Virus record (IMG/VR): IMGVR_UViG_3300027906_000182
Coordinates: 1 to 21,123 of that record
DNA length: 21,123 nt
Source: a virus
Direction: 5' to 3' (one strand)
Shown: piece by piece, positions 1-20,194 of the stretch
Layout of the letters: every line of letters starts with the position of its first letter
How positions within the stretch are numbered: position 1 is the first letter of the stretch
Position numbers and translations under genes: made by a program
The notes under the pieces: generated by a model
What the model was told of the DNA's origin: nothing
The model's input: the letters and a program-made list of their open reading frames with translations, nothing else
Databases searched by the model: none

Positions 1-917
1 TCTACCTTCTGATCCAAGTAAGACATAGCAGTCTCTCTATCTAGTTTACCTATCTTGTGTGCATAGGTTAAGTCACTTGCTATTGTAAGTATATTGTTCT
101 CCCAGTGTGTTTCAACCTTCTCTTCTTCTCCTTTAATACTGAACCACTCCTGTACCTCATCCATAAAGACCTTTGGCTTATCGAATAGTGTAGGTGACAG
201 TATCATTGGTGAGGCTTGATGAACTAATTTAGGAAGTAAGTCTGCGTATAGATGAGCATTATCACTCACCACATAGTAACTACCCAGTTCTACTTCTAAC
301 ATTGAAGCCATATACTCTTGTAGTATTGTCATATGTACTATGTTAGCTCCCAACATACCTAGTATAACGTCATTAGACCTATTGAATACAGTCATATCAA
401 GTTTGTTATCTTTCACTGCGAACTTGATAAGCATATTACAAGGTAAGTCTCTGTACTCATTCTCTGGGTGTAAGTCATACTCCATATCCCACATAGCCAG
501 TATACTTCGTCTATCGTTGGGATAACTCTTTAGCCTATGTAGTAAGATAGGTAATTGATCGACACCATTGAAGTGTTCTCTCCATCTATGTCCATAGGCA
601 GCATGGAATGTTTCTCCATCATCACTGTAGTCTGCCATCTTCTTTACATACTTAGTCAGTGAGTGAGTATCATTACGACCTGCAAGCATCCACAATGCTT
701 CTACCAAGTGGAAGGTTGGATTGGCATCCCTACTAGGTGAGTAAAGTATCCTGTCTGTCGGATCATTAAACTTCACTGTTATAGGGTGAGGCATCTCGTA
801 TACCTTACCATTCCTACTGTCGCTTTCAACTCCAACTGATTTAATTACGTTAGGTAAGTCATTGAACGCATCGACAACACCTGCATACTCGAATGAGCTA
901 TTCTTTTTGAAATTCAT
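1..917 (-). CDS. Thymidylate synthase-family protein (3' end beyond window)
   Basis: The open frame runs from an ATG at 917 to the left edge without a stop, giving 305 residues with the C-terminus missing. Family hallmarks in order are a YGHRWR segment at about 108-113, the paired arginines of the dUMP phosphate site (DRR at 135-137), the catalytic cysteine C160 in DLPCN, then FNRSND, LGMLGANI and an HLY motif further on. Thymidylate synthases convert dUMP to dTMP using methylene-tetrahydrofolate, which would supply phage DNA synthesis. The asparagine of LGMLGANI seems to match the residue that favours dUMP over dCMP, so a hydroxymethylase is less likely but not excluded. The residue after the catalytic Cys is Asn, where classical enzymes have His. 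The start follows an AAAGGA ribosome site and lies three bases after the previous gene's stop, so the two are co-transcribed. The family call is firm; the exact substrate is not. Confidence 0.85.
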   Translation of the reverse strand, partial: MNFKKNSSFEYAGVVDAFNDLPNVIKSVGVESDSRNGKVYEMPHPITVKFNDPTDRILYSPSRDANPTFHLVEALWMLAGRNDTHSLTKYVKKMADYSDDGETFHAAYGHRWREHFNGVDQLPILLHRLKSYPNDRRSILAMWDMEYDLHPENEYRDLPCNMLIKFAVKDNKLDMTVFNRSNDVILGMLGANIVHMTILQEYMASMLEVELGSYYVVSDNAHLYADLLPKLVHQASPMILSPTLFDKPKVFMDEVQEWFSIKGEEEKVETHWENNILTIASDLTYAHKIGKLDRETAMSYLDQKV

Positions 918-920
918 TTA

Positions 921-1205
921 TTATCCTTTCTCTTCTACAAATTCAATTAATTGTTTAGTAGCAGTATCGGTTAACTCTATTTCTCCGTCTTTAGATACCA
1001 CTATTTCTTTATTAGTCATTAAATCAAAACATAAGTTTGAGAATTGTAAAAACAAAATGTGGTATTCAGGTACGGACATTATTAAGTCCATACCCTTTGA
1101 CCTTTCCCACAATCTCACTATAGAAATCTCTAAGTATAATTGACCATCAATTTCTATAGCTATTTCTTTTTCTTTTTTAGGGAATAAATCTATTACTTTT
1201 CCCAT
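921..1205 (-). CDS. Small hypothetical protein, 94 aa
   Basis: I do not recognise this protein. It begins with a basic stretch (KKEK near residue 10), followed by alternating hydrophobic and acidic segments that suggest a compact alpha/beta fold. No signal peptide or membrane segment is visible. The ATG shares one base with the stop codon of the upstream ssDNA-binding gene (TAATG), with only a weak ribosome site, so translation is probably coupled to that gene. The thymidylate synthase gene follows after three bases. Being between a DNA-binding protein and a nucleotide enzyme suggests a replication or nucleotide-metabolism accessory role, but that rests on context alone. Confidence 0.7.
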   Translation of the reverse strand: MGKVIDLFPKKEKEIAIEIDGQLYLEISIVRLWERSKGMDLIMSVPEYHILFLQFSNLCFDLMTNKEIVVSKDGEIELTDTATKQLIEFVEEKG

Positions 1206-1687
1206 TAGAATTCAGCTTGAGCTCCGTCTCCAACTATATCGAAGTCTATGCTTGTACTTCTTTCGTATGGAACTAGCTCAGTTACTTGTACTGCAGAGAG
1301 AGTTGTGCTTACTCCTTCACGACCATTAAACTTATATGGTGCTTGAAATACTCTAACAGCTCCTCGACTACCATAACCGATAGTGCTTGGATCCATTGTT
1401 TGTCTGTTGCCATCAACGACATCAGGTGGACTGTTCTTTTGATCAGTTATTTTACCTTTGTCCTTTCTATACAGTCCTCTAGTCAAGTTGGCGAACCAAT
1501 AGTTCTCCTCCTTGTTCTCCTTTACATTCAGGTAGAAGTCTTTCTTCCAACTGTCTGCAGCACTCTTGTCAGAGGTTCTGATTTGTGCTTCCCATTGCTC
1601 TGTACCGAATGGGTTGGCAGGCTGATCTAATTTAGTGTAGAACAATTCTACGTCTTTGATTATCACAGTTCTCTTTTCTTGTAACAT
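1205..1687 (-). CDS. Probable ssDNA-binding protein, gp2.5/OB-fold type (copy A)
   Basis: This 160-aa protein likely coats single-stranded DNA during phage replication. It has the layout of phage gp2.5-like/DUF2815-type binding proteins: an N-terminal strand pair (VIIKDVELFYTKLD), a QWEAQIRT strand, a central basic-aromatic part (YWFANLTRGLYRKDKGK), a glycine-rich IGYGSRGAVRVF strand, and a LSAVQVTELVPY strand. It ends in an acidic tail, SIDFDIVGDGAQAEF. An acidic tail ending in phenylalanine is the known interaction signature of T7 gp2.5 and related proteins. A second gene at 4196-4663 shares the same beginning and end. AAAGGAG lies 8 bases before the ATG. A terminator lies just upstream and the thymidylate synthase pair follows. 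The role is inferred from sequence pattern, without alignment. Confidence 0.7.
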   Translation of the reverse strand: MLQEKRTVIIKDVELFYTKLDQPANPFGTEQWEAQIRTSDKSAADSWKKDFYLNVKENKEENYWFANLTRGLYRKDKGKITDQKNSPPDVVDGNRQTMDPSTIGYGSRGAVRVFQAPYKFNGREGVSTTLSAVQVTELVPYERSTSIDFDIVGDGAQAEF

Positions 1688-1710
1688 ATAGTATACTCCT
1701 TTGTTAGTGT

Positions 1711-1740
1711 AAAAAATAGGGGAACCATTTGGCTCCCCTT
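1711..1740 (-). terminator. Rho-independent terminator after the DUF3310 gene
   Basis: A 9-bp stem (1718-1726 with 1731-1739) and a 4-base loop are followed, reading leftwards, by A and six T. One position is A/C on the plus strand but G-U in minus-strand RNA, so the structure fits leftward transcripts. The next start codon (1687) is only 24 bases beyond the T-tract. Confidence 0.85.
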
Positions 1741-1744
1741 TAGT

Positions 1745-2008
1745 TTATTCTTTTATGTCTGAAGGTTCTTTACCTTCTTTGACTTGTATCAAGTAGTTCA
1801 AGTACCACTGTACTTTCTTTAGCTCTTGAACATCATTGTCTTTCTTACCGAGTCTCATCATATACTTGTACATCTGACCCAGTAGGTGTGCTTCGATTCC
1901 ATTGAAGTCCTTTAGTATGTAGTACATAGTATCCATATACTCATACCCTGGAATTATGTCCTTGTAGTGCTTAGGACTAATGGAATCAGGATCTAATTGT
2001 TTAGTCAT
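1745..2008 (-). CDS. DUF3310 family protein
   Basis: The 87-aa product matches the DUF3310 pattern common in phages: an N-terminal SPKHYKD, then IEAHLLGQMYKYMMRLGKKD, then a C-terminal LKKVQWYLNYLI helix. The family is sometimes annotated as nucleotide kinase-like, but its biochemical function is not established. I place the start at the second ATG (2008), because AAAGG lies 7 bases upstream of it; the ATG at 2014 lies within the ribosome site. It overlaps the end of the upstream 65-aa gene, so the cluster from 2756 down to here is translationally linked. A strong terminator follows. Confidence 0.8.
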   Translation of the reverse strand: MTKQLDPDSISPKHYKDIIPGYEYMDTMYYILKDFNGIEAHLLGQMYKYMMRLGKKDNDVQELKKVQWYLNYLIQVKEGKEPSDIKE

Positions 2009-2198
2009 TGTCATCCTTTCGTTGTAGTACCACTGTACTTTCAGGTGGGTTGATTATCTTTCTAGTAGTCAAGATATTCTTACACTGAAACTCAAGAAAC
2101 TCTAGTGTATTATTGTTCAGAGTTTCTAGATTGATTTCGATACCATCAGTGAATCTTCTATTTACATCACAACTATGGCTTGGTAACATCACTTTCAT
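2001..2198 (-). CDS. Small hypothetical protein, 65 aa
   Basis: I do not recognise this protein. It is soluble, with an acidic/asparagine-rich centre and a charged KDDND end. Its ATG overlaps the previous stop as ATGA, and its own end overlaps the DUF3310 gene, which is typical of a packed phage early operon and supports it being real. No domain motif is visible. Confidence 0.65.
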   Translation of the reverse strand: MKVMLPSHSCDVNRRFTDGIEINLETLNNNTLEFLEFQCKNILTTRKIINPPESTVVLQRKDDND

Positions 2199-2389
2199 TC
2201 GTATTCTCTTAACACTTTGAGCTTGTCCAGTGCAGTTGCTTTTGCATCAAGGAACTTATCAAGCTCTTCTAAGAGGTGAGGGTGTTCACCTATTGCAGTT
2301 GGATTTTCTAGGTAGTTTGTTATGTTGTAATCAGCCACTAATACATCGGCTTCATACCTTGCCTTTAAGGCTTGTGTTGCTATTCCCAT
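2195..2389 (-). CDS. Small helical hypothetical protein, 64 aa
   Basis: I do not recognise this protein. The sequence is strongly helix-forming, with ALKARYEADVLVAD near the N-terminus and a leucine/lysine-rich C-terminal helix. It overlaps both neighbours by a few bases, and GGAG of the upstream gene's end serves as its ribosome site. There are no cysteines, no signal peptide and no membrane segment. A small DNA- or protein-binding accessory is possible, with no direct support. Confidence 0.65.
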   Translation of the reverse strand: MGIATQALKARYEADVLVADYNITNYLENPTAIGEHPHLLEELDKFLDAKATALDKLKVLREYE

Positions 2390-2565
2390 CTCTTTACTCC
2401 TGTTATTTCAATGTCAACGTTTGGATCTTCATCTTCAAGTATAGTTACTATATCATCTGCCATCCTACTCAGGTCTACGAAGTATCGTATACGACCATTA
2501 TTGTTTTCTTGGTAGTCAGGATCTTCATCAATATCAACATAATCATCTATTTCTAGCTTAGCCAT
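2380..2565 (-). CDS. Small acidic hypothetical protein, 61 aa
   Basis: I do not recognise this protein. It is very acidic, with runs such as DDYVDIDEDPDY and TILEDEDPNVDIEI, and could be a DNA-mimic or a partner of a basic protein; this is speculation from charge only. Its ATG shares one base with the stop of the upstream gene, and GGAG lies 5-8 bases before it. It is the second gene of the packed five-gene run 2756-1745. Confidence 0.65.
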   Translation of the reverse strand: MAKLEIDDYVDIDEDPDYQENNNGRIRYFVDLSRMADDIVTILEDEDPNVDIEITGVKRWE

Positions 2566-2756
2566 CAGTTACTCCATACATAGGTTACGTCATCGTCCTC
2601 ATAGTGCTCGTCTATTATTGCATCTCTTACATTATCAGGCATATCTGACAACAGACCTGCCACTGTATACTCTCCTTTCCCATCTAGGGTTTCCATCAGG
2701 GCTCTTTTATAGAAACTATACATAGCTGGTTGTCTTTTATTCTCTTGTTCGTCCAT
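2565..2756 (-). CDS. Small acidic hypothetical protein, 63 aa
   Basis: I do not recognise this protein. The N-terminus is hydrophilic (DEQENKRQ), a helical SFYKRALMETLDG follows, and the end is acidic (DEHYEDDDVTYVW). AAGGAG is well placed before the ATG at 2756. It is the first gene after the hairpin and promoter-like motif at 2777-2820, so it probably opens a five-gene leftward unit that ends at the 1711-1740 terminator. Confidence 0.65.
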   Translation of the reverse strand: MDEQENKRQPAMYSFYKRALMETLDGKGEYTVAGLLSDMPDNVRDAIIDEHYEDDDVTYVWSN

Positions 2757-2776
2757 AAGGTTCTCCTTAAAGTTAT

Positions 2777-2820
2777 CCTTATAGGGGGATTTTGGAACCC
2801 CTCCTATAAGGGTGTTTTTT
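2777..2820 (+). other. Strong hairpin between minus-strand genes, T-tract on the plus side
   Basis: CCTTATAGG (2777-2785) pairs perfectly with CCTATAAGG (2803-2811), and GGG/CCC extends the stem inside. The T-rich run (2815-2820) follows on the plus strand, although genes on both sides are on the minus strand. It would therefore terminate rightward, antisense-directed transcription. Leftward it is a hairpin with no T-tract, and its right arm carries a promoter-like motif. Confidence 0.6.
2802..2816 (-). promoter_or_regulatory. Candidate phage promoter motif, copy 1
   Basis: Read leftwards this is AACACCCTTATAGGA, nearly the same as AACACCCCCTTATAGGA at 7239-7255 on the plus strand. Both copies point toward the genes that follow them. 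The TATAGG end resembles the initiation region of T7-family RNA polymerase promoters. No RNA polymerase gene lies in the window. Confidence 0.4.
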
Positions 2821-2825
2821 ATGCT

Positions 2826-3062
2826 TTATAATATATTCTGGATAGTTGAGTAGCAATGGTCAAGGCTATCTTGAGCTGCTTTTACTTCTTCTTTAGCCCA
2901 ATCAATACAGCCTTGGAGGTCTTGTATTTCCTCTATAACGGCATCTACTTCCTCGTTATGTTCTTCTGGAATATAGTCATAAAGTTTATTTATTAGAGTC
3001 TCTAGTTGCTCTGCATTTCCTCTGCAGGTTTCTAGTTTATCTATTCCTTCTGATAAGCTCAT
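2826..3062 (-). CDS. Acidic coiled-coil-like hypothetical protein, 78 aa
   Basis: The function is unknown. Nearly the whole protein is predicted helix with heptad-like leucines/isoleucines (LETLINKLYDYI, AVIEEIQDLQGCIDW), and it is strongly acidic with three cysteines. GAAAGGAAA lies before the ATG. It stands as a single gene between the terminator at 3086-3119 and the hairpin at 2777-2820. Its start lies only 24 bases after a terminator T-tract, so its transcript must come from readthrough or from a promoter embedded in the terminator region. Confidence 0.65.
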   Translation of the reverse strand: MSLSEGIDKLETCRGNAEQLETLINKLYDYIPEEHNEEVDAVIEEIQDLQGCIDWAKEEVKAAQDSLDHCYSTIQNIL

Positions 3063-3085
3063 AGGATTTCCTTTCTGTTGTTTGT

Positions 3086-3119
3086 AAAAAAATAAAGGAC
3101 ACCCTAGAGTGCCCTTTAT
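3086..3119 (-). terminator. Rho-independent terminator after the nucleotidyltransferase-like gene
   Basis: AAAGGACAC (3094-3102) pairs with GTGCCCTTT (3109-3117), with a G-U pair only in minus-strand RNA. A T-tract of seven follows leftwards. It begins a few bases after the stop at 3123. Confidence 0.85.
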
Positions 3120-3122
3120 TTG

Positions 3123-3689
3123 TTATGCTTGTTTCCACAAGTGAGGAACAAATGCGTAATCACTGAATCTACCTATTATCTTTTGAAGATAATGATGGTT
3201 CCATTGATCTCTGTTCATTTCGTGGATTGTTTTACCTTTGAAAGACATAGCATAAGCCCAATCACATTCAATCTTTCCATTTATCCCCATCCAAATCCTT
3301 GAGATACTTATTGGAAAATTCTTTATTATCTTTAGTGGATCTTCATCTACATTGATAAATTGGATTGTCCTGTATTGCAGATTACCAGTGGTACAAGTAT
3401 ATTCAGCTACACTGTTGATGTAGCTATTCTTGTATGGACCAGTGTAACCATATACAGTATCAAATTCTATCTTCTTGAAAGAAGTAGGAATCCAATTAGG
3501 TTGATCAGGTACATTGTAGAAGATATCTAGGTCACGACATCCCCAATTATGATGCCAGTCTCTGGTTGCACCACCTGCAACGTAGCAAGTTCCACCACTG
3601 GGTAATTCAGCATTTAGCTTTCTGAGTAATCTCAAAGCACTTTTCTTTTGTGCTTTAGCCCATTTACTCTCTAATTTAATAATGGTCAT
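3123..3689 (-). CDS. Stand-alone nucleotidyltransferase-like protein, 188 aa
   Basis: The N-terminal half carries the signature of the pol-beta/CCA-adding nucleotidyltransferase fold: a YVAGGATRD glycine turn (36-44), then RDLDIF (52-57) with the paired metal-binding aspartates D53 and D55. In CCA enzymes and poly(A) polymerases this segment binds NTP and magnesium. The protein has only about 188 residues, so the long RNA-binding body of those enzymes is absent. The substrate could be tRNA, another nucleic acid, a protein or a small molecule. The second ATG (3689) is preferred over 3704, because AAAGGA lies between the two. It is a single-gene unit between terminators. The fold call is fairly good; the function is open. 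Confidence 0.6.
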   Translation of the reverse strand: MTIIKLESKWAKAQKKSALRLLRKLNAELPSGGTCYVAGGATRDWHHNWGCRDLDIFYNVPDQPNWIPTSFKKIEFDTVYGYTGPYKNSYINSVAEYTCTTGNLQYRTIQFINVDEDPLKIIKNFPISISRIWMGINGKIECDWAYAMSFKGKTIHEMNRDQWNHHYLQKIIGRFSDYAFVPHLWKQA

Positions 3690-3716
3690 AGGTATTCCTT
3701 TCATTTTATTAAATCT

Positions 3717-3754
3717 AAAAAAATAGACACACTAAGATTTCTCCTAGTGTGCCT
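3717..3754 (-). terminator. Rho-independent terminator after the 24-aa membrane peptide
   Basis: A 10-bp stem pairs AGACACACTA (3725-3734) with the matching arm ending at 3754, with a G-U pair in minus RNA. Seven T follow leftwards. It lies 4 bases after the stop of the 24-aa frame, which supports that frame being translated. Confidence 0.85.
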
Positions 3755-3758
3755 GAGT

Positions 3759-3833
3759 TTATAGTGTACGATAATAGTATATCCATCTAATAATGAAGAA
3801 TAGAGCTACTATCATAGCCAATATGAATGTCAT
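3759..3833 (-). CDS. Tiny single-span membrane peptide, 24 aa
   Basis: The frame encodes a short peptide that is almost entirely hydrophobic for its first 18 residues (MTFILAMIVALFFIIRWI), followed by tyrosines and an arginine. It would be one membrane helix with a positive end. It starts two bases after the stop of the 60-aa gene (TAATATG) and ends just before a terminator, so it fits exactly into the transcription unit. Small phage membrane peptides can act in superinfection exclusion, lysis control or host inhibition; which applies here is unknown. Its shortness keeps the confidence moderate. Confidence 0.5.
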   Translation of the reverse strand: MTFILAMIVALFFIIRWIYYYRTL

Positions 3834-3834
3834 A

Positions 3835-4017
3835 TTATTGCCATCCCATCACTGTATCAACAAATCTAATCTTTTCGTGTGTATCAGTATTCTGACTCAT
3901 TTCACGATCTTGCATCTCATAACCTGTATGAGCATTAAGAGTTTTGATTTGTTCATCAGTTAGGTTTTCAAGGTTAGCTATTATGTGAGCTACAACACAA
4001 GATAGAGGTGTATCCAT
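3835..4017 (-). CDS. Small hypothetical protein, 60 aa
   Basis: I do not recognise this protein. It has an N-terminal helix containing VVAHIIANLENL, then TDEQIKTLNAHTG, then a polar C-terminal half. TAGGAG lies before the ATG. The ATG shares a base with the stop of the 33-aa frame upstream, and the 24-aa membrane peptide follows, making a three-gene mini-operon between two terminators. Confidence 0.6.
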   Translation of the reverse strand: MDTPLSCVVAHIIANLENLTDEQIKTLNAHTGYEMQDREMSQNTDTHEKIRFVDTVMGWQ

Positions 4018-4118
4018 TAGGCACTCCTATTAGGGTTGTATGATAATAATTGACCTTGGATAGTTATCCAATATGGCTTACCTTCAATGTAGCCATAGAA
4101 ATAGACTGGTGTGTTCAT
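4017..4118 (-). CDS. Tiny hypothetical protein, 33 aa
   Basis: The frame has a very good ribosome site (AAAGGAG) and encodes an aromatic-rich peptide (MNTPVYFYGYIEGKPYW). It ends with its TAA overlapping the next ATG (TAATG). It is the first frame after the terminator at 4148-4184. The peptide looks beta-forming and is not a membrane segment. The function is unknown. Confidence 0.55.
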   Translation of the reverse strand: MNTPVYFYGYIEGKPYWITIQGQLLSYNPNRSA

Positions 4119-4147
4119 AATAAACTCCTTTCGAACTTGTTTAGTCT

Positions 4148-4184
4148 AAAAAAAAAATAAGGATACCCTTTCGAGTATCCTTAT
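4148..4184 (-). terminator. Rho-independent terminator after ssDNA-binding copy B
   Basis: A 12-bp stem (ATAAGGATACCC at 4157-4168 with the arm ending at 4184) and a short loop are followed by ten T reading leftwards. It sits directly after the stop at 4196 and is one of the strongest terminators in the window. Confidence 0.9.
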
Positions 4185-4195
4185 CTTTAGTTGTG

Positions 4196-4663
4196 TTAGA
4201 ACTGATTGCTGAATTCAGTTTTAGTATCATCTATAATATCAAAGTCAATACTATCGAGTTCATATTTCTTGTACTCGATGACTTGTACCTTCCTTAACTG
4301 TGTATAGAACTTACCATCTTTCTCGTATTTTAGAACTATTATGTTGGCTTTAGTTCCATTCCCCATCTCCATAACTTCTGTAGGAGATAATGCATTCCCT
4401 CTCATATCAGTTACAGGAACACTGTTAGCTTTACCTTTAGCATTGAATTCAGGTAGTCTAACATTGATTGATAGCATATCATCAGCTACATCACAAGGTC
4501 TAGCTGGTTGCCTTGAGAACTCAGCTAATTCAACCATTCTAGATGATGGAAAGTCAAGTCTAACTTCAAATTGCTTTACACCAAACTGGTTAGGTTGAGC
4601 TGAATTAAGCTTTGGATAGGCTAAAAGTACATCACGAATGATGTGTAGAGTAGTATTTGGCAT
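4196..4663 (-). CDS. Probable ssDNA-binding protein, gp2.5/OB-fold type (copy B)
   Basis: This 155-aa protein has the same plan as the product at 1205-1687. It has an N-terminal strand with IIRDVLLAYPKLN, then FGVKQFEVRLDF, then a C-terminal LRKVQVIEY strand followed by SIDFDIIDDTKTEF and a final phenylalanine. The shared SIDFDI and acidic, Phe-ending tail argue for common ancestry and for interaction with replication proteins. The centre differs: it lacks the glycine-rich, basic-aromatic segment of copy A, so it may bind DNA differently or have another role such as recombination. It is a single-gene unit bounded by terminators, with AAAGGA before the ATG. Confidence 0.6.
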   Translation of the reverse strand: MPNTTLHIIRDVLLAYPKLNSAQPNQFGVKQFEVRLDFPSSRMVELAEFSRQPARPCDVADDMLSINVRLPEFNAKGKANSVPVTDMRGNALSPTEVMEMGNGTKANIIVLKYEKDGKFYTQLRKVQVIEYKKYELDSIDFDIIDDTKTEFSNQF

Positions 4664-4690
4664 ATTTAGATTCCTTTCATATGCAGTTGT

Positions 4691-4708
4691 GGATACCTTA
4701 TGATATCC
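4691..4708 (-). other. Leader hairpin before ssDNA-binding copy B
   Basis: GGATA and TATCC flank an 8-base loop in the short space between the terminator at 4710-4740 and the ribosome site of the gene starting at 4663. A comparable leader hairpin precedes the 196-aa gene. It may protect mRNA 5' ends or modulate readthrough. Confidence 0.35.
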
Positions 4709-4709
4709 T

Positions 4710-4740
4710 AAAAAAAATAGGACACCATTACAGTGTCCTT
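4710..4740 (-). terminator. Rho-independent terminator after the 88-aa gene
   Basis: AGGACAC (4719-4725) pairs with GTGTCCT (4733-4739). Eight T follow leftwards. The stop of the 88-aa gene is at 4746. Confidence 0.85.
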
Positions 4741-4745
4741 ATTAG

Positions 4746-5012
4746 TTATTCGCCTTCTGCCCCTAGATTATTTCTTATGCATTGGAATACATAGTCCATA
4801 TCACTGGCATATTGAGTCTGGCTTGGTCTAGTTGGATTATCGCAGTCCAGAACTACCCACCTTACAATTTCATCTTCTTCTGCTCCATCGTAAGTTGGTG
4901 TTATTGACCTAGCAAATGATAGCTCCTTACCATTAATTATGATTGAGAAGCCATCATTCTTGCTATTGTTCCAAACTCTTACTTTGGCTGGTCTTTCGAA
5001 TATTATACTCAT
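4746..5012 (-). CDS. Hypothetical protein, 88 aa
   Basis: I do not recognise this protein. The first half alternates basic and hydrophobic residues in a beta-like way (KVRVWNNSKNDGFSIIINGK). The second half is acidic, with an EEDEIVRWVVLDCD segment and a helical C-terminus. AAGGAG inside the end of the upstream gene precedes the ATG, which lies two bases after that gene's stop. It shares a two-gene unit with the 101-aa gene, ended by the 4710-4740 terminator. Confidence 0.6.
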   Translation of the reverse strand: MSIIFERPAKVRVWNNSKNDGFSIIINGKELSFARSITPTYDGAEEDEIVRWVVLDCDNPTRPSQTQYASDMDYVFQCIRNNLGAEGE

Positions 5013-5014
5013 AA

Positions 5015-5320
5015 CTAAAGCTCCTTATCATCGTGGATTAATTGATATGCACTATCCATAATATCAACATACCAAGGTTCAATATTTACCTCAATACTAT
5101 CTTCAAGTGTTTCTTGAATTTGATTTACTGCATTAGGTCTAGCTATATCTAGAGCTTTCATTACTTTTTCAAGCTTATCGAAATGACCTGCTTGTAGAAG
5201 CTTGACTATATCATCTGTATTACTTCCTGATATTCTTTTAACTATATTCATTAGAGCCTTGACTAGTTGTACATTTTCCCAGTGGGCAATACAGATGTTC
5301 TTTCTTTCTTCTTCTGTCAT
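5015..5320 (-). CDS. Hypothetical helical protein, 101 aa
   Basis: I do not recognise this protein. It is mostly helical, with the acidic N-terminus MTEEERKN, amphipathic helices around NVQLVKALMNIVKRI and LEKVMKALDIARP, and an acidic C-terminus. The start is set at 5320, where AAAGGAG lies 8 bases upstream; the longer frame to 5356 has no ribosome site. It is the first gene after the 12-bp repeat array, so any promoter or origin function in 5321-5553 would act on it. Confidence 0.65.
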   Translation of the reverse strand: MTEEERKNICIAHWENVQLVKALMNIVKRISGSNTDDIVKLLQAGHFDKLEKVMKALDIARPNAVNQIQETLEDSIEVNIEPWYVDIMDSAYQLIHDDKEL

Positions 5321-5553
5321 AGTTGTTCTCCTTTTATGACTGTTGATGTTCGGCACTCATACCATTCACAGTATTCGTGCAGTGTTCTCCTCTCGTAAAT
5401 GCCATTTAAGGGCACTTTAAGTGTAAGAGGTAGAGAAAACCCTTGCAGGATCCCAAGAGGTCTCCGACAAGAGGCTAAGAGGTACCCTAAGAGGTACCCT
5501 GAGAGGTACCCTAAGAGGTACTCTAAGAGGTACTTTAAGAGGTACTGCCCTCT
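5321..5553 (-). promoter_or_regulatory. Long leader/intergenic region with repeats
   Basis: This is the largest gap between same-strand genes in the window. It contains the 12-bp repeat array at 5476-5547, degenerate copies of the same motif at about 5453-5475, and a short dyad CACTTTAAGTG at 5413-5423. No frame with a ribosome site is seen. It probably holds the promoter of the 101-aa/88-aa gene pair and may be a replication-origin or protein-binding region. This is inferred from structure. Confidence 0.45.
5476..5547. repeat. Six tandem 12-bp repeats
   Basis: The unit is TAAGAGGTACCC, repeated six times without spacers. Copies 1 and 2 are identical, copy 3 has one change (TGAG), and copies 4-6 differ only in the last two bases. 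Copies 1-3 contain the palindrome GGTACC, so each unit is close to a dyad. Degenerate AAGAGG copies lie just left of the array. The layout resembles iterons or a multi-site protein-binding array. Confidence 0.9.
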
Positions 5554-5589
5554 AAAAAAATGAGCCCTCAGGGGTGACCCTGAAGGCTC
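5554..5589 (-). terminator. Rho-independent terminator after the 196-aa gene
   Basis: GAGCCCTCAGGG (5562-5573) pairs with CCCTGAAGGCTC (5578-5589) as a 12-bp stem with one G-U pair in minus RNA. Seven T follow leftwards. The T-tract runs straight into the repeat array. Confidence 0.9.
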
Positions 5590-5607
5590 GGTTGTGGACT
5601 CGAAGGC

Positions 5608-6198
5608 TTACTTGAGTAGCCCTGAGTATAGGGATGAGACCTCCGACTCGGTACTAGTCATACTAGACTGAGGCTGAGATCCAGCCGAGCGAAAAGCACA
5701 GAACCAAGGAGACACCACAGAAGATGAATCCCTGTAACTGTTAGACGCACGACCAAACTCCATTGGCACTTTACCAACAACAACCCCCAACAGAACTTTG
5801 AGGAACTGAAGGCGATCATCATCGTCAAGACCAATTAGCTTACACTTCTTCTCCCAATCCCTTCCAGTCTTTAGTTCTACCACAGGCAGAAATAAAGTTC
5901 CGTAAGGGTCGAAAGGAGCCCCATCAGCCTGATGGTGAACTTGATTACCAAAAGTAATCCCACCATTAGCTGTTGGTCGCTCATAACGAACACAGGATTG
6001 AAGAAATGACTTCATATCAACAACTTGATCTGAAGTACTCGCTACAAATGCTTCACTGTTCCATAAGAAACTCTCAGCAGGCTTAGTCACCTGCTTCTTA
6101 GCTTTCCTCATATGAAGAGTGTAGAATTTGGGAGTCATCCCTATTGAAGGACTTGTTTTGAGAGCGATGTCCTTAAGTTGCTCAAGAGAATTGACCAT
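5608..6198 (-). CDS. Hypothetical protein, 196 aa
   Basis: I do not recognise this protein. The N-terminal part is mixed and basic (LHMRKAKKQVTKP). A central glycine-rich segment (ANGGITFGNQVHHQADGAPF) and a hydrophobic stretch (LPVVELKTG, FLKVLLGVVVGKV) follow. The last 40 residues are serine-rich and probably disordered. I place the start at 6198, because AAAGGA precedes that ATG and sits between it and the ATG at 6222. Base use is visibly richer in G and C than in neighbouring genes. It stands alone between two terminators with a structured leader, which suggests separately regulated or high-level expression. An abundant DNA-binding or host-interaction protein is possible, without direct support. 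Confidence 0.65.
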   Translation of the reverse strand: MVNSLEQLKDIALKTSPSIGMTPKFYTLHMRKAKKQVTKPAESFLWNSEAFVASTSDQVVDMKSFLQSCVRYERPTANGGITFGNQVHHQADGAPFDPYGTLFLPVVELKTGRDWEKKCKLIGLDDDDRLQFLKVLLGVVVGKVPMEFGRASNSYRDSSSVVSPWFCAFRSAGSQPQSSMTSTESEVSSLYSGLLK

Positions 6199-6260
6199 AA
6201 TGGTAAATTCCTTTCTGGGCAATAGCCCACTGAGGAGCCTGCTTAAGTGCAGGATCTCCT
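6199..6260 (-). promoter_or_regulatory. Structured leader of the 196-aa gene
   Basis: Reading leftwards, two hairpins precede the ribosome site: CCTGC/GCAGG inside a GGAG/CTCC pair, and GGGC-TATT-GCCC. Both lie in the 62 bases between the upstream terminator and the ATG. The second would sit just before AAAGGA and could influence translation or mRNA stability. Confidence 0.4.
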
Positions 6261-6293
6261 AAAAAAAAATAGGGGAGCCATTACAGCTCCCCT
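6261..6293 (-). terminator. Rho-independent terminator after the 99-aa gene
   Basis: AGGGGAGC (6271-6278) pairs perfectly with GCTCCCCT (6286-6293). Nine T follow leftwards after one A. The stop codon of the 99-aa gene is at 6299. Confidence 0.9.
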
Positions 6294-6298
6294 CGGAA

Positions 6299-6598
6299 TT
6301 AGTTATCGTTAACAACAGAAGGCTTATCATAAAGATGAGGATTAAGAGCATTACTTATCTCTTTAGCAGTTATTAAATCCTGTTTCTTAACAGCCTTAAT
6401 TGAATCGTTTAACTCCTTAACAGACTTAGCATCAAGGAAAATCACAATCTCCCCAGTTGGTTCATCTGTCTCGCTGTCAAACACTTCATGATCAGGGTCT
6501 GTTAACAAGCGTTGTATATGAGTCAAGAGACGATTCCTCTTAATCATATTGCTTGTATTTTGAAAGCCTGCTCTGTTATATTTGATAATCTTCGTCAT
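6299..6598 (-). CDS. Hypothetical protein, 99 aa
   Basis: I do not recognise this protein. A basic N-terminus (MTKIIKYNRAGF, MIKRNRLLTHIQRLL) is followed by an acidic strand region (SETDEPTGEIVIFLDAKS) and a helical C-terminal half. The start is set at 6598, which has AACAGGAGAT upstream; a longer frame to 6652 would read through a terminator stem and has no ribosome site. The leader shares a 16-base motif with that of the next gene upstream (6676-7041), suggesting common control. Confidence 0.65.
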   Translation of the reverse strand: MTKIIKYNRAGFQNTSNMIKRNRLLTHIQRLLTDPDHEVFDSETDEPTGEIVIFLDAKSVKELNDSIKAVKKQDLITAKEISNALNPHLYDKPSVVNDN

Positions 6599-6603
6599 AA
6601 CAT

Positions 6604-6619
6604 ATCTCCTGTTATTGCA
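6604..6619 (-). promoter_or_regulatory. Conserved leader motif, copy 1
   Basis: Read leftwards this is TGCAATAACAGGAGAT, differing by one base from the motif at 7048-7063. It contains the ribosome site of the 99-aa gene and extends well upstream of it, so more than the Shine-Dalgarno is conserved. Confidence 0.5.
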
Positions 6620-6632
6620 AGTTAAAATTCCT

Positions 6633-6668
6633 AAAAAAATAAAGGGAGCCATTTCTGACTCCCTTTAT
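6633..6668 (-). terminator. Rho-independent terminator after the 121-aa gene
   Basis: AAAGGGAG (6641-6648) pairs with CTCCCTTT (6659-6666), extended by A/T pairs. Seven T follow leftwards. The stop codon is at 6676. Confidence 0.85.
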
Positions 6669-6675
6669 TCAACCT

Positions 6676-7041
6676 TTATTCTTTTTGAGCCTTAAGCTTA
6701 TCTAAAAGCCTAATTAGCTCTCTCATCTGAGGGTCTCGATTAAAGATACGAGTTGACCTCGCACTCATCTTATCCTCATAATCCTTGCTGAAAAGAGTAT
6801 ACAAATCACGAGTGTGTGGATGTTCCTTCTTTACAATCTTCTGGATCACCTTTATTATATTATGAAGACAAAACTGATGCATATCTCGTTCATAATGAAC
6901 ACAGTCATAATCACCGACATTAGCATCAGGTTTATCTGCTCTATCCTTTGCAGCATAGACAACCGTATTCAGGTGTTCTAGCTCTTGGACTAGCTTAACT
7001 AATAAAGAATGAGAGTTAAAAGAATTATATTGCTTCGACAT
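6676..7041 (-). CDS. Hypothetical protein, 121 aa, first gene of the leftward arm
   Basis: I do not recognise this protein. It is basic and mostly helical, with SLLVKLVQELEHLNTVVYAAKDRADK near the N-terminus, several histidines and cysteines in the middle (DYDCVHYERDMHQFCLHNI), and a charged C-terminal helix (ELIRLLDKLKAQKE). The long open frame to 7233 is not credible before 7041: it would translate a terminator stem, while ATG 7041 has AACAGGAGAT at good spacing. As the first leftward gene beyond an attenuator-like leader, it may be an early host-takeover or regulatory protein. That is inference from position. Confidence 0.65.
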   Translation of the reverse strand: MSKQYNSFNSHSLLVKLVQELEHLNTVVYAAKDRADKPDANVGDYDCVHYERDMHQFCLHNIIKVIQKIVKKEHPHTRDLYTLFSKDYEDKMSARSTRIFNRDPQMRELIRLLDKLKAQKE

Positions 7042-7047
7042 AACAAA

Positions 7048-7063
7048 ATCTCCTGTTATCGCA
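7048..7063 (-). promoter_or_regulatory. Conserved leader motif, copy 2
   Basis: Read leftwards this is TGCGATAACAGGAGAT, the counterpart of 6604-6619. It includes the ribosome site for the 121-aa gene starting at 7041. Confidence 0.5.
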
Positions 7064-7075
7064 GTTGGTTGTTTT

Positions 7076-7108
7076 AAAAAAAGCCCCCTCGGTCGCAAGA
7101 CCAAGGGG
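7076..7108 (-). terminator. Intrinsic terminator in the leader of the leftward arm (attenuator-like)
   Basis: A 10-bp stem (7085-7094 with 7099-7108, one G-U in minus RNA) and a tetraloop are followed leftwards by C and seven T. No minus-strand gene lies upstream of it before the divergent terminase gene. It therefore sits between any leftward promoter in 7110-7274 and the first gene, and would act as an attenuator or early/late switch. Confidence 0.75.
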
Positions 7109-7197
7109 AAGTTTGGGAGAAAACTAGAGAGGGAGGAAGAGAGGTGTCCACACAAGGGGAGAGAGGGGAAGAGGGGGTGCGAAACTTGAGAGAGGTA
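7107..7197 (+). other. Purine-rich strand-asymmetric tract in the divergent region
   Basis: The plus strand here is dominated by G and A (runs such as GAGAGGGAGGAAGAGAGG and GGGGAGAGAGGGGAAG), broken only briefly. Leftward RNA would be C/U-rich and poorly structured, and rightward RNA GA-rich. No gene is supported in it. Candidate roles are a packaging-initiation site beside the terminase gene, a Rho or protein loading site in the leftward leader, or a triplex-forming element. Confidence 0.5.
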
Positions 7198-7238
7198 CAT
7201 CATCCTCGGCACATCTTTTTTATATACAAACAAAGGAT

Positions 7239-7255
7239 AACACCCCCTTATAGGA
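7239..7255 (+). promoter_or_regulatory. Candidate phage promoter motif, copy 2 (before terminase)
   Basis: AACACCCCCTTATAGGA lies 20 bases before the terminase ATG and repeats the minus-strand motif at 2802-2816, with two extra C. The CTTATAGGA end resembles a T7-family RNA polymerase start region. No convincing sigma-70 -35/-10 pair is seen near it. Confidence 0.45.
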
Positions 7256-7274
7256 AATTTAGAGGACAGCCGAT

Positions 7275-8900
7275 ATGAAGAATAAAAGAAAATTAGAATT
7301 GGCTAAAGAAATACATAAAAGGAAAAAGACTATTGCTTACAAAGAAGACTTTGAACTCTTTTCAAGAGAGCAGTTGTCTATCATTACCAAGAACGCAAGT
7401 GAAGGGTTTGTACCTTTTACGTTTAATGAAGCCCAAAAAAGAATCAACAAACAACTTGAAGAACAGAGAAATAAGACAGGGAAGGTCAGAGCTATTATTC
7501 TAAAAGCCAGACAACAAGGAATCAGTACTTACTGTGCTGCAAGGGTTTTTTGGAAAACTTTTTATACTCCTTTTACTAGGTCGGTTGTTATGGCACACGA
7601 CAGTGCAACTAGTGATGCCCTCTTTAATATGTCCAGAAATATAATTGACAATATGGAGGAACCACCTCTATTACAAAAGAGTAATGCAAAGGAGATATTA
7701 TTTGAGCACAATAAATCAGGCTACAGACTTTATACAGCTGGTTCAAAAGAAGCTGGGAGAGGAACAACTCCAACTATTGCTCACCTATCGGAGGTCGCAT
7801 TCTGGCAGTTCGATGAGCAAATATTGGCAGGACTTTTCCAAGGCATTAGCCAAGAAGAAGGAACAGAAATAATTTTAGAGAGTACAGCAAATGGTGCAAG
7901 TGGAGAATTTTACAGGCTCTTTCAGGGAGCTGTTCGAGGTGAAAATGAATATATACCCATTTTTCTACCTTGGTTTGTAACTCCAGAATACACTAGAAAG
8001 GCTCCAGAAGTATTTGAATTATCAGAACACGAAGAAGAACTGGTAGAAAAATATGATTTGACCAATGATCAGCTGTACTGGAGAAGACTTAAAATAGGCG
8101 AGTCAGGGGAACGAAAGTTTGTTCAAGAGTACCCCAGCACTGCAGAAGAAGCATTTTTGGTGACTGGTAACAGTGTATTCGATCAAGAGACTCTTTTGTC
8201 TATCAAAACTACCATTCCAGAATATTTGAGAAGGTATGACGAAAACAGTAGTTACTTCGAAGATCACAAGGAAGGACACCTTGAAGTGTGGAAACCACCA
8301 TCCTTCGAGAATAAGTTTATAATAGGAGCAGACGTTGCCCTTGGAGTAGGTCAAGACTACTCTGCAGGAATAGTATTTAATCAGGACAGAGAGATTTGTG
8401 CTTTGTTCAGAGATAACTACACAGACCCCAGTGTATTTGGGGATATCTTATTTTATCTCGGCAGATACTACAATAATGCGTTACTTGCAGTAGAAAGTAA
8501 TAGTCTTGGTATAGCAACACTCAATAGACTAAAACAAATGAATTATGTGAATCTTTACTACCAGACTAAAGCTGCAAACCTTTTGCACGAAGAAGGTCAA
8601 AAACCAGGATTTCGCACAACGGTTTCTACGAAACCAATGATAATAGGTAATTTGAAGAGAGCGATAGAAGACAACGATGTAATGATTCCTTCAGAAACAA
8701 TACTACAAGAATTAAAAACTTATGTCTCTTTTGACAATGGTTCTACAGGAGCCATAGCAGGCAACTACGATGATACAGTCATTGCGTTAGCCATCGCACT
8801 AGAAGCATACAGAACACACCAACATAGATTGACAGATGATACTGTCTCTTGGAAAGAAAAAATAGGTCAAATACAGGAGGATCGAACACAATGGCTATGA
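7275..8900 (+). CDS. terL: Terminase large subunit
   Basis: This is the motor that cuts concatemeric phage DNA and pumps it into the prohead through the portal. The 541-aa length is normal. The ATPase half has a Walker A-type segment ILKARQQGIST (75-85), a Walker B-type IAHLSE (168-173) and the coupling motif LESTANG (201-207). The RNase H-like nuclease half shows IIGADVALG with D353, LLAVESNS with E407 and GNYDDTVIALA with D499/D500, the expected acidic metal ligands. AGAGGA precedes the ATG. It is the first gene of the rightward late arm, and its end overlaps the ribosome site and first codons of the next gene. Confidence 0.95.
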   Translation: MKNKRKLELAKEIHKRKKTIAYKEDFELFSREQLSIITKNASEGFVPFTFNEAQKRINKQLEEQRNKTGKVRAIILKARQQGISTYCAARVFWKTFYTPFTRSVVMAHDSATSDALFNMSRNIIDNMEEPPLLQKSNAKEILFEHNKSGYRLYTAGSKEAGRGTTPTIAHLSEVAFWQFDEQILAGLFQGISQEEGTEIILESTANGASGEFYRLFQGAVRGENEYIPIFLPWFVTPEYTRKAPEVFELSEHEEELVEKYDLTNDQLYWRRLKIGESGERKFVQEYPSTAEEAFLVTGNSVFDQETLLSIKTTIPEYLRRYDENSSYFEDHKEGHLEVWKPPSFENKFIIGADVALGVGQDYSAGIVFNQDREICALFRDNYTDPSVFGDILFYLGRYYNNALLAVESNSLGIATLNRLKQMNYVNLYYQTKAANLLHEEGQKPGFRTTVSTKPMIIGNLKRAIEDNDVMIPSETILQELKTYVSFDNGSTGAIAGNYDDTVIALAIALEAYRTHQHRLTDDTVSWKEKIGQIQEDRTQWL

Positions 8901-14927: not shown

Positions 14928-15329
14928 ATGAATCAATTATTTGATATAACGAAATTTGCAATAGGGTTTGATGAGATGATGGATAGAGTCCATTATCAAC
15001 AGAATCAATCTACAACTTATCCACCTTACGATATAATAAAGGTAGATAATTTTAATTATAAAATAGAAATGGCTCTTGCTGGATTCAGTAAGAATGATAT
15101 TGAGGTTGAAGTAGCAGAAGGTATTATTACTATAAGCTCTAATAAAGAAAATGACCAAGATAAAAGTAAGCTATACAGAGGTATATCTTACAGAAAATTC
15201 ACTCGACAGTTTACAATAGCTGAAGATATTGAAGTACAAGATGCCAAACTAGAAAATGGTCTTCTCACTATTTCGTTAGAAAGAATTGTACCAGATGAGA
15301 AGAAACCGAGGATGATAAAGGTAAAATAA
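14928..15329 (+). CDS. Hsp20/alpha-crystallin small heat-shock protein
   Basis: This is a 133-aa small heat-shock protein of the IbpA class, an ATP-independent chaperone that keeps proteins from aggregating. The alpha-crystallin domain is clear: YDIIKVDNFNYKIEMALAGF, then NDIEVEVAEGIITI, FTRQFTIAEDIEVQDAKLENGLLTISLER, and a C-terminal PRMIKV segment. The LENGLLTISL strand and FTIAEDI loop are close to bacterial IbpA. AAGGAG precedes the ATG. Its place between portal and scaffold suggests a role in capsid protein folding or assembly, as proposed for Hsp20 genes of marine T4-like phages. It is co-transcribed with the head genes. Confidence 0.9.
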   Translation: MNQLFDITKFAIGFDEMMDRVHYQQNQSTTYPPYDIIKVDNFNYKIEMALAGFSKNDIEVEVAEGIITISSNKENDQDKSKLYRGISYRKFTRQFTIAEDIEVQDAKLENGLLTISLERIVPDEKKPRMIKVK

Positions 15330-18116: not shown

Positions 18117-18151
18117 AGGGGTAGTCCTAATAGGGCTGCCCCTATTTTTTT
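18117..18151 (+). terminator. Rho-independent terminator after the major capsid gene
   Basis: An 11-bp stem (AGGGGTAGTCC at 18117-18127 with the arm 18133-18143, two G-U pairs) is followed by A and seven T. It separates the capsid gene from the BMP pair; the next ATG is 14 bases after it. The loop region contains CCTAATAGG, which weakly resembles the candidate promoter motif. Confidence 0.9.
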
Positions 18152-18164
18152 ATGAGGAGATAAA

Positions 18165-19193
18165 ATGAAAAAATTTATATCAATATTATTAACTGTACTA
18201 TTAATACCAACAATGTTATTCGCCAGTAGTGGTGAGTTTAAAAATCATGTCAAAGTAGGCTTTGTTTATGTTGGTCCAGTTGGAGATCATGGTTGGACTT
18301 ATATGCACGACCAAGGTAGACTGATGTTAGAGGAAGAATTAGGAGATAAAGTAACTACAGTATATGTAGAGAGTGTTCCTGAAGGTCCAGATGCTGCAAG
18401 AGTTATGAGGGATATGGCACAAAGTGGTGTCGATATAATCTTCACAACTTCATTCGGATATATGGATCAAACACTAAAGGTAGCAAAAGAATTTCCAGAT
18501 GTAAAGTTTGAACATGCCACTGGATATAAGAGAGCTGAGAATGTTAGTGTTTACAGTAGTAGATTTTATCAAGGTAGATATATACAAGGTGTAATTGCAG
18601 GGCATATGAGTAAAGAAGGAAAGGCAGGTTATATTGCCAGTTTCCCTATTCCAGAAGTTATAAGGGGAATAAATAGTTTTTACTTAGGTGCTAAGTCAGT
18701 TAACCCTGAGTTTGATGTGGATATTATTTGGGTTAATACTTGGTATGACCCAGCTAAAGAATCTCAAGCTGCAGAAGTATTGATTAGTAATGGTGCTGAT
18801 ATAATTACACAGCATACAGATAGTCCTGCTCCACTACAAACAGCAGGAATTAAAGGTATAATGGCATTTGGTCAAGCTTCAGATATGATAGCATTTGCAC
18901 CAGATACTCAGTTAACTTCTATATTAGATAACTGGGGACCATATTACGTTTCTAGAGTGAAAGCTCTTATGAATGGTATGTGGGAAAGCGAAGATACTTG
19001 GGGAGGAATGAATACTGGAATGGTAGGAATGGCTCCTTATACTAATATGCCTGATGATATTAAGGCTATTGCTATGAAATTAGAACAAGATATTTTAGAT
19101 GGAACGTTTAATCCATTTGATGGGATAGCTAGTGATGGTGATTTACTAGGAATGATGAATTATGTAGAAGGTATTGATTCGACAATACCATAG
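18165..19193 (+). CDS. BMP-family periplasmic substrate-binding protein (Sec signal)
   Basis: This 342-aa protein belongs to the basic membrane protein (BMP/PnrA/Med) family of ABC-transporter substrate-binding proteins, whose characterised members bind purine nucleosides. Visible features are a Sec signal (MKKFISILLTVLLIPTMLFA, cleavage after A20, no lipobox cysteine), VGFVYVGPVGDHGWTYMHDQGR, DAARVMRDMAQSGVDIIFTTSF, the hinge-like SFPIPEVIRGINSFYLGAKSVNP, NTWYDPAKESQAAEVLISNGADII and AFGQASDM. These are complete for the family, with no truncation or frameshift. GAGGAG precedes the ATG, directly after the capsid terminator. A second BMP gene follows after 8 bases. It should be soluble in the periplasm of a Gram-negative host. 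No permease or ATPase genes are present. The ligand is unproven. Confidence 0.92.
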   Translation: MKKFISILLTVLLIPTMLFASSGEFKNHVKVGFVYVGPVGDHGWTYMHDQGRLMLEEELGDKVTTVYVESVPEGPDAARVMRDMAQSGVDIIFTTSFGYMDQTLKVAKEFPDVKFEHATGYKRAENVSVYSSRFYQGRYIQGVIAGHMSKEGKAGYIASFPIPEVIRGINSFYLGAKSVNPEFDVDIIWVNTWYDPAKESQAAEVLISNGADIITQHTDSPAPLQTAGIKGIMAFGQASDMIAFAPDTQLTSILDNWGPYYVSRVKALMNGMWESEDTWGGMNTGMVGMAPYTNMPDDIKAIAMKLEQDILDGTFNPFDGIASDGDLLGMMNYVEGIDSTIP

Positions 19194-19201
19194 GAGGACA
19201 G

Positions 19202-20194
19202 ATGATTAATAGAAGACAATTTGGAGCTGGTGCTGCTGCTATAACAGCCTTATCAGCTTTTCCTGTTTTAGGTAATACTAAGATTAAAGTAGCAGGAATA
19301 TATACAGTACCCACACAGCAGAAATGGGCAGCAAGACTACACCTTGCACTTGAAGCTGCTGCTAAGATGGGTAAGATAGAATATGTTTATTCAGAGAATA
19401 CAGCTAACACTGACTATGTTAGAGTGATGAGAGAATATTGTGAGAGTGGTGTTAACTTAATTGTAGGTGAAGCATTTGGAATTAGTAAAGAAGCTAGAAA
19501 AGTAGCTGATGATTATTCAAGTGTCTCATTTTTAATGGGTGATCCATTTAAACCTCACGGAGATAACTTCTCTGTCTTTGATAACTATATTCATGAACCT
19601 TGCTACCTTATGGGTAAAATAGCAGGGGCTATGACAAGGTCAAATAAGATAGGTATGGTCGGAGGTTACGCAATCGGTGAAGTCAATAGATTATTTCATG
19701 CTTTTATGGACGGAGCTAAGTCTGTAAATCCAGCTGTACAATTTAAAGTTACCTTTATAGGTTCTTGGTATGACCCACCAAAAGCTAAAGAAGCTACATT
19801 TGCCCAAATAGAATCTGGGTGTGATGTTATGTATGCTGAAAGAGCAGGGGTAGTAGATGCCTGTAGAGATAAAGGTATATTGGCATTTGGTAATGTAAAT
19901 GATATGAACAAAGAAGAGAATGGAAAGGATGTAGTTGTTACTTCTGCCTTATGGCATATGGAGTCAGCAATTAATCATGCCATCGATAGAGTTAAATCAG
20001 GTTCATTTACAGCTGAAGAATACCATAATTGGACTATGATGAAAATGGGTGGAGCTACACTAGCACCATACTATGAGTTCGAGGATAAGATTCCTCTAGA
20101 CATTAAATTAGAAATTGCAACACTATCTAACAAAATTAAGTCAGGCGAGTTTGTAGTTAATATAAATGATGAGGAACCTAAATCAACTTTTTAA
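19202..20194 (+). CDS. BMP-family periplasmic substrate-binding protein (Tat-type signal)
   Basis: A 330-aa homologue of the previous protein. The N-terminus MINRRQFGAGAAAITALSAF has the twin-arginine motif N-R-R-Q-F followed by a mild hydrophobic core, so folded export by the Tat system is predicted, unlike its neighbour. The family core is intact: IKVAGIYTVPTQQKWAARL, YVRVMREYCESGVNLIVGEAFG, GMVGGYAIGEVNRLFHAFMDGAKSVNP, GSWYDPPKAKEATFAQIESGCDVM and ILAFGNVNDMN. The two proteins share segment order and the [W/S]YDP(A/P)K motif but differ strongly elsewhere, so they are diverged paralogues or a co-inherited pair and not a recent duplication. GGAGG overlaps the region before the ATG. A hairpin terminator follows. 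The ligand is unknown. Confidence 0.92.
   Translation: MINRRQFGAGAAAITALSAFPVLGNTKIKVAGIYTVPTQQKWAARLHLALEAAAKMGKIEYVYSENTANTDYVRVMREYCESGVNLIVGEAFGISKEARKVADDYSSVSFLMGDPFKPHGDNFSVFDNYIHEPCYLMGKIAGAMTRSNKIGMVGGYAIGEVNRLFHAFMDGAKSVNPAVQFKVTFIGSWYDPPKAKEATFAQIESGCDVMYAERAGVVDACRDKGILAFGNVNDMNKEENGKDVVVTSALWHMESAINHAIDRVKSGSFTAEEYHNWTMMKMGGATLAPYYEFEDKIPLDIKLEIATLSNKIKSGEFVVNINDEEPKSTF

Follow-up and report, generated by a model that had tools for sequence, protein, structure and literature searches.

We analysed a 21,123-nucleotide (nt) stretch of viral DNA, positions 1 to 21,123 of IMG/VR record IMGVR_UViG_3300027906_000182 (hereafter the window). This 21 kb fragment comes from a podovirus related to Roseobacter phage CRP-7. 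Its leftward arm carries nine same-strand intrinsic terminators, eight of which fall in the stretch from the divergent junction to P_L, the first leftward phage promoter. The informative part is this arrangement, in which the terminators punctuate what may be a leaky, cassette-wise early zone upstream of P_L. The features of the arm, together with the terminator of the late arm, are listed here from the junction leftward.

terL, 7275..8900, plus strand: terminase large subunit gene, opens the late arm.
P_R, 7238..7255, plus strand: predicted phage promoter TAACACCCCCTTATAGGA, upstream of terL.
Junction element, 7173..7235, minus strand: conserved and single-copy, AAAAAAGATGT...GTACC...TTTCG...CCCCC.
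Variable early zone, 2826..7041, minus strand: small genes in cassettes ended by terminators.
Terminator 1, 7076..7109, minus strand (hairpin 7108-7085): lies in the leader, preceded by no gene; the first leftward start codon is 34 nt on.
Terminator 2, 6633..6670, minus strand (hairpin 6670-6637): 3' of gene 6676-7041.
Terminator 3, 6261..6293, minus strand (hairpin 6293-6271): 3' of gene 6299-6598, loop CTGTAATGG.
Terminator 4, 5554..5589, minus strand (hairpin 5589-5562): 3' of gene 5608-6198; a 12-bp tandem repeat (CTAAGAGGTACC, about six copies at 5475-5545) comes next, in the non-coding gap beyond it.
Terminator 5, 4710..4739, minus strand (hairpin 4739-4719): between genes 4746-5012 and 4196-4663.
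Terminator 6, 4148..4188, minus strand (hairpin 4188-4153): 3' of gene 4196-4663, which resembles a single-stranded DNA-binding protein (SSB) gene.
Terminator 7, 3717..3754, minus strand (hairpin 3754-3725): precedes the nucleotidyltransferase-like gene 3123-3689.
Terminator 8, 3086..3121, minus strand (hairpin 3121-3090): 3' of gene 3123-3689; the last before P_L, about 270 nt upstream of it.
P_L, 2802..2819, minus strand: predicted T7-like phage promoter AAAAACACCCTTATAGGA; terL is 4.46 kb to the right.
Terminator 9, 1711..1739, minus strand (hairpin 1739-1718): the only one downstream of P_L, between the DUF3310 gene and the Gp2.5-like SSB gene.
Late-arm terminator, 18117..18151, plus strand: past the major capsid gene, in a position like that of T7 Tphi.

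A detector that requires at least five T residues following a stem of -8 kcal/mol or better, run on positions 1-7274, returned exactly nine sites on the minus strand and one on the plus strand; 200 dinucleotide shuffles gave a mean of 0.32 terminators and a maximum of 2. An independent scan recovered seven of the nine. The hairpins fold as RNA with energies of -12 to -25 kcal/mol, and eight are more stable as leftward RNA than as its complement (for example -20.2 versus -11.6 and -21.3 versus -14.8 kcal/mol), while the hairpin at 7085 is equally stable in both directions. The first-pass annotation, made by a model from the letters of the window, had placed nine terminators at these sites, had read their G-U pairs as favouring leftward RNA and had proposed fold prediction as a check; all of this was borne out. 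With stems and T-tracts beyond chance and an orientation that matches the genes, the nine sites are, judged by sequence, true leftward intrinsic (Rho-independent) terminators, ordinary in kind. The spacing described in the same annotation held in part. Most T-tracts lie 23-34 nt from the next start codon, close to the 24-30 bases given there, but three lie at 46, 62 and about 230 nt; and the statement that a terminator follows every one to five genes fails for terminator 1, which follows none, and for the interval between the terminators at 3086 and 1711, which holds six genes plus the phage promoter at 2819.

To place these terminators in context we compared the window with about 80 relatives (CRP-7 and IMG/VR contigs); terL of the window shares 61% identity with CRP-7 (MK613349) and mostly 77-99% with many of the IMG/VR contigs. 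Relatives share TATAGG-type sites with the consensus AAACACACCCTTATAGG(G/A), whose likeness to T7 promoters suggests that they serve a T7-like polymerase. The window holds two such sites, P_L and P_R. The two scores are 28.5 and 29.0 bits in a motif model built from these genomes with both sites included, and 634 kb of shuffled window sequence gave no match of at least 22 bits. Where P_L was detected in relatives, it lies at 2.3-4.7 kb. In the window P_L overlaps an inverted repeat (2774-2814), the opposite arm of which also bears CCCCCTATAAGG, and its predicted transcript therefore begins with a hairpin.

Across 23 arms, the 81.5 kb upstream of P_L contain 45 leftward terminators and the 115 kb downstream contain 3 (p = 2e-14, a value that overstates independence because some arms come from related phages), versus 1 and 3, respectively, on the opposite strand. 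From this distribution it follows that the terminators belong to a zone that P_L does not drive. Individual arms have from zero to eight terminators upstream of P_L; one further contig, L003, has nine terminators and ends before any P_L.

L003 also allows individual hairpins to be compared. Those of terminators 5 and 6, which flank the SSB-like gene, are at the same places in both phages, within a block of 73% identity; the terminator 5 hairpin is identical, and in that of terminator 6 one pair has changed from A-U to G-U and the T-run differs in length. However, many relatives retain the SSB-like or nucleotidyltransferase gene with no detected terminator alongside, and the conservation that the first-pass annotation had suggested as a check is thus found where L003 shares genes but not generally. 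Hairpins resemble each other within a phage more than expected (0.123 versus 0.039 in label shuffles, with 0 of 2000 reaching 0.123), strongly in L013, L017, L066 and L068 and weakly in the window, which suggests that hairpins were copied within a genome or that cassettes were exchanged. For L066 versus L068, the arms were too dissimilar to align reliably for counting paired base changes.

We propose that the hairpins mark off exchangeable cassettes of small genes within an immediate-early zone that extends from the divergent junction to P_L. The conserved junction element would be where leftward transcription enters, carried out not by the T7-like polymerase but by either host RNA polymerase or a second, virion-type single-subunit polymerase. 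Each terminator would be leaky, serving both as a step-down attenuator and as an mRNA 3' end. Past P_L, the genes for replication and polymerase would make up an operon with few terminators; the T7-like polymerase would read it and, once made, take over. We give this leaky, step-wise attenuation of the early zone as a whole about an even chance of being right. Graded attenuation had been among the options raised in the first-pass annotation and is the best fit, with stems about 10 nt past stop codons as a possible source of leak; the evidence from conservation is mixed. Another of its options, a phage polymerase that ignores such signals, is partly sustained in that relatives encode single-subunit RNA polymerases, but it is not the natural reading because the terminators precede the first leftward T7-like promoter.

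Candidate roles for the junction element are early promoter, packaging site and origin. Between it and terminator 1, the leader (7110-7200) is strongly C+T-rich in the leftward direction, and the leaders of relatives are similarly pyrimidine-rich with variable sequence. A leader peptide starting from a conserved GATGT was considered and rejected, as the frame, inspected by eye, runs into an immediate stop in several relatives.

If host polymerase reads the zone, a terminating ribosome could cover a hairpin whose stem begins only about 10 nt past the stop codon, which would favour leak. The median distance is 10 nt from stop codon to stem (n = 56) and 30 nt from T-tract to start codon (n = 59). 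In E. coli, masking of the hairpin by the ribosome cut the efficiency of a terminator 5 bp past a stop codon from about 90% to less than 10% (PMC4824070). By analogy, with stems here about 10 nt past stop codons, leak is plausible under host polymerase with coupled translation, and ribosome masking is a plausible source of it.

Several points weigh against the attenuation proposal. Masking requires transcription and translation to be coupled, and it cannot explain readthrough at terminator 1 since no gene lies upstream. The conserved post-capsid terminator is also close to its gene (8-16 nt beyond it), so that genome compactness may explain part of the short stop-to-stem distance. In many relatives the corresponding zone has few terminators or none; the arrangement is therefore not essential, and terminators are not required upstream of P_L. 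Terminator 9 of the window (1739) falls downstream of P_L. Because the motif model includes the window's own sites, the recurrence of P_L across relatives is the stronger argument for it. Both host RNA polymerase and a second phage polymerase are candidates for the enzyme that reads the zone, and since the window is a fragment, the RNA polymerase genes of its phage are inferred from relatives. We found no expression data for this phage group in the literature searched.

Neither RNA polymerase gene lies within the window, and a PF00940 search of its record, a fragment, gave no match. The T7-like RNA polymerase gene is present in 8 of 15 relative records, most of the others being short fragments. 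A second predicted RNA polymerase is encoded at the late-arm end in all seven relatives whose records reach that point and, by a weaker match, in CRP-7; complete copies are 1,180-1,274 amino acids long. It is the most interesting by-product of the analysis. Copies include the following.

L094, 6333-10130, minus strand: second RNA polymerase, unannotated, late-arm end.
L100, 9818-13453, plus strand: second RNA polymerase, unannotated, late-arm end.
L097, 15552-19376, plus strand: second RNA polymerase, unannotated, late-arm end.
L102, 10890-14450, plus strand: second RNA polymerase, unannotated, late-arm end.
L110, 826-4368, minus strand: second RNA polymerase, unannotated, late-arm end.
L001, 9753-13460, minus strand: second RNA polymerase, CRP-7 gp33, late-arm end.

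CRP-7 gp33 is annotated as a hypothetical protein, and the T7-like enzyme is the only RNA polymerase described in the CRP-7 paper. We assign the family to the single-subunit RNA polymerases because of its motifs, weak PF00940 matches (in four of eight members) and predicted fold. The motif A and C aspartates are invariant, as is K/R-x7-YG. A structure predicted from an alignment of seven members, with CRP-7 gp33 left out, is of moderate confidence (pLDDT 70.5, pTM 0.67), and the 50 Foldseek hits listed are single-subunit RNA polymerases only (mitochondrial, N4 and T7; E 3e-8 to 4e-5, TM-score to the query up to 0.46). Single-sequence searches of Pfam, PHROGs and the PDB returned nothing; as for a sequence relation to N4 gp50, the PDB profile search gave no N4 chain and tblastn no phage. 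The gene is convergent to that of the T7-like polymerase and closes a run of large late proteins, the position of ejection proteins, beside one with an SLT transglycosylase domain. From this gene position we infer that the second polymerase may be packaged in the virion.

Two single-subunit phage RNA polymerases per genome, one of them a large late protein beside ejection-type proteins, are also characteristic of N4 (Schitoviridae). However, the second polymerase of the relatives has about 1,200 residues compared with about 3,500 for the N4 virion RNA polymerase, we found no hairpin promoter, the portal and capsid of the window are SU10-type, and the virion location is putative. A more specific form of our proposal is that an ejected, N4-like polymerase in a phage outside the Schitoviridae would read the zone from the junction element, with the T7-like enzyme reading the rest from P_L and P_R and the terminators grading the output of the ejected enzyme. 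We hold this form tentatively, as a possibility somewhat short of an even chance.

A different explanation is that each cassette has its own promoter in or near the hairpin, the terminators separating independent units. T4-type PeSL cassettes are of this kind: fast-changing small early genes with similar stem-loops between them and an early promoter for each stem-loop. The stem-loop-separated early genes of the window are alike in this respect. The short distances from hairpin to next gene and the likeness of hairpins within one phage speak for this explanation, but no promoter was found by each stem-loop. E. coli-type sigma70 promoter matches, considered for the arm and for each unit, were not above chance, although Roseobacter promoters may differ, and by eye, with no motif search run, post-terminator sequences are alike mainly in their ribosome-binding sites. 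The N4-like second polymerase of relatives also speaks for such promoters. Those that N4 uses early are small DNA hairpins whose loop bases are conserved (PMC4496689), but the junction has no conserved hairpin with a 3-nt loop, and the arm has 14 such stems versus 8.7 in shuffles. We consider separate cassette promoters unlikely.

Processive antitermination, the remaining option of the first-pass annotation, would have a put- or nut-like RNA at the junction, or an early protein, make the polymerase ignore the terminators downstream. The conserved single-copy element sits exactly at the start of the leftward leader, and a terminator precedes the first gene in the window, L003, L040, L017 and others, which speaks for this reading. 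But the element has no consensus RNA structure (RNAalifold energy 0, 44 sequences) and is equally conserved in L021 and L082, which have no detected terminators. Nor was an N- or Q-type antiterminator seen among the arm proteins scanned, several of them orphans, in a search that was not exhaustive. With no structured leader RNA found, we favour leaky attenuation over an antitermination cascade, which we regard as improbable. Equally doubtful is the idea that the hairpins serve mainly to protect mRNA 3' ends or to insulate P_L, with attenuation incidental: the last terminator is indeed about 270 nt upstream of P_L, and terminators can add to upstream mRNA stability (PMC11696848), but a single terminator would suffice for insulation, and genes just past the hairpins need readthrough because no promoter was found for them.

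The early zone resembles the T7 class I region in having small early genes ahead of phage promoters, and the window further shares with T7 a TATAGG promoter and a terminator past the capsid gene, as T7 Tphi. T7 has strong host promoters, however, whereas the arm of the window has no recognised host-type promoter, and T7 has one early terminator after several genes, compared with eight in this zone. Among the relatives, those of CRP-7 type carry the T7-like RNA polymerase and the second one at the late-arm end. In CRP-7 itself, unlike the window, terL is preceded by genes on its own strand, and there are no strong matches to the promoter motif; among IMG/VR contigs terminator density differs widely.

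The leftward arm encodes SSB-like, nucleotidyltransferase-like, DUF3310, Gp2.5-like SSB and thymidylate synthase proteins. The early-zone genes are small and poorly conserved, and none of the relatives examined has a homologue of any of the first five leftward genes. There are two SSB-type genes (1205-1687 and 4196-4663); one is Gp2.5-like by PHROG, while for the other the sole match is a weak one to a PHROG whose function is unknown, and the name SSB-like comes from the resemblance of the two SSB-type families in relatives. A single strong terminator, at 18117, lies in the late arm, and a terminator stands behind the capsid gene in 14 of the 17 relative loci checked. Directly past it in the window is an adjacent pair of Bmp/PnrA-type substrate-binding protein genes (18165-20194), found in none of the fetched relatives and with distant matches only, to unannotated gut phage contigs. 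An HSP20-type small heat-shock protein gene (14928-15329) also lies in the late arm, and a few relatives carry one too. An Rfam search of the window gave no match, and a search by the thymidylate synthase gene for a longer relative found nothing usable. One relative, G001, is probably a complete genome, because by eye its two ends overlap at a terminator T-run; an exact-match test of the overlap scored 0 because the T-runs of the two ends differ in length.

A recent preprint describes the large virion-associated polymerase as unique to the N4 family (PMC12633501). If our reading is true, the second polymerase, CRP-7 gp33, would be a virion-type polymerase outside that family, and the terminators would mark the hand-over between two transcription systems, readable from sequence alone. 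These are abundant marine phages, and the gradation among them, from nine terminators down to none beside neighbouring genes that are shared, would offer a natural test of how early gene dosage is tuned.

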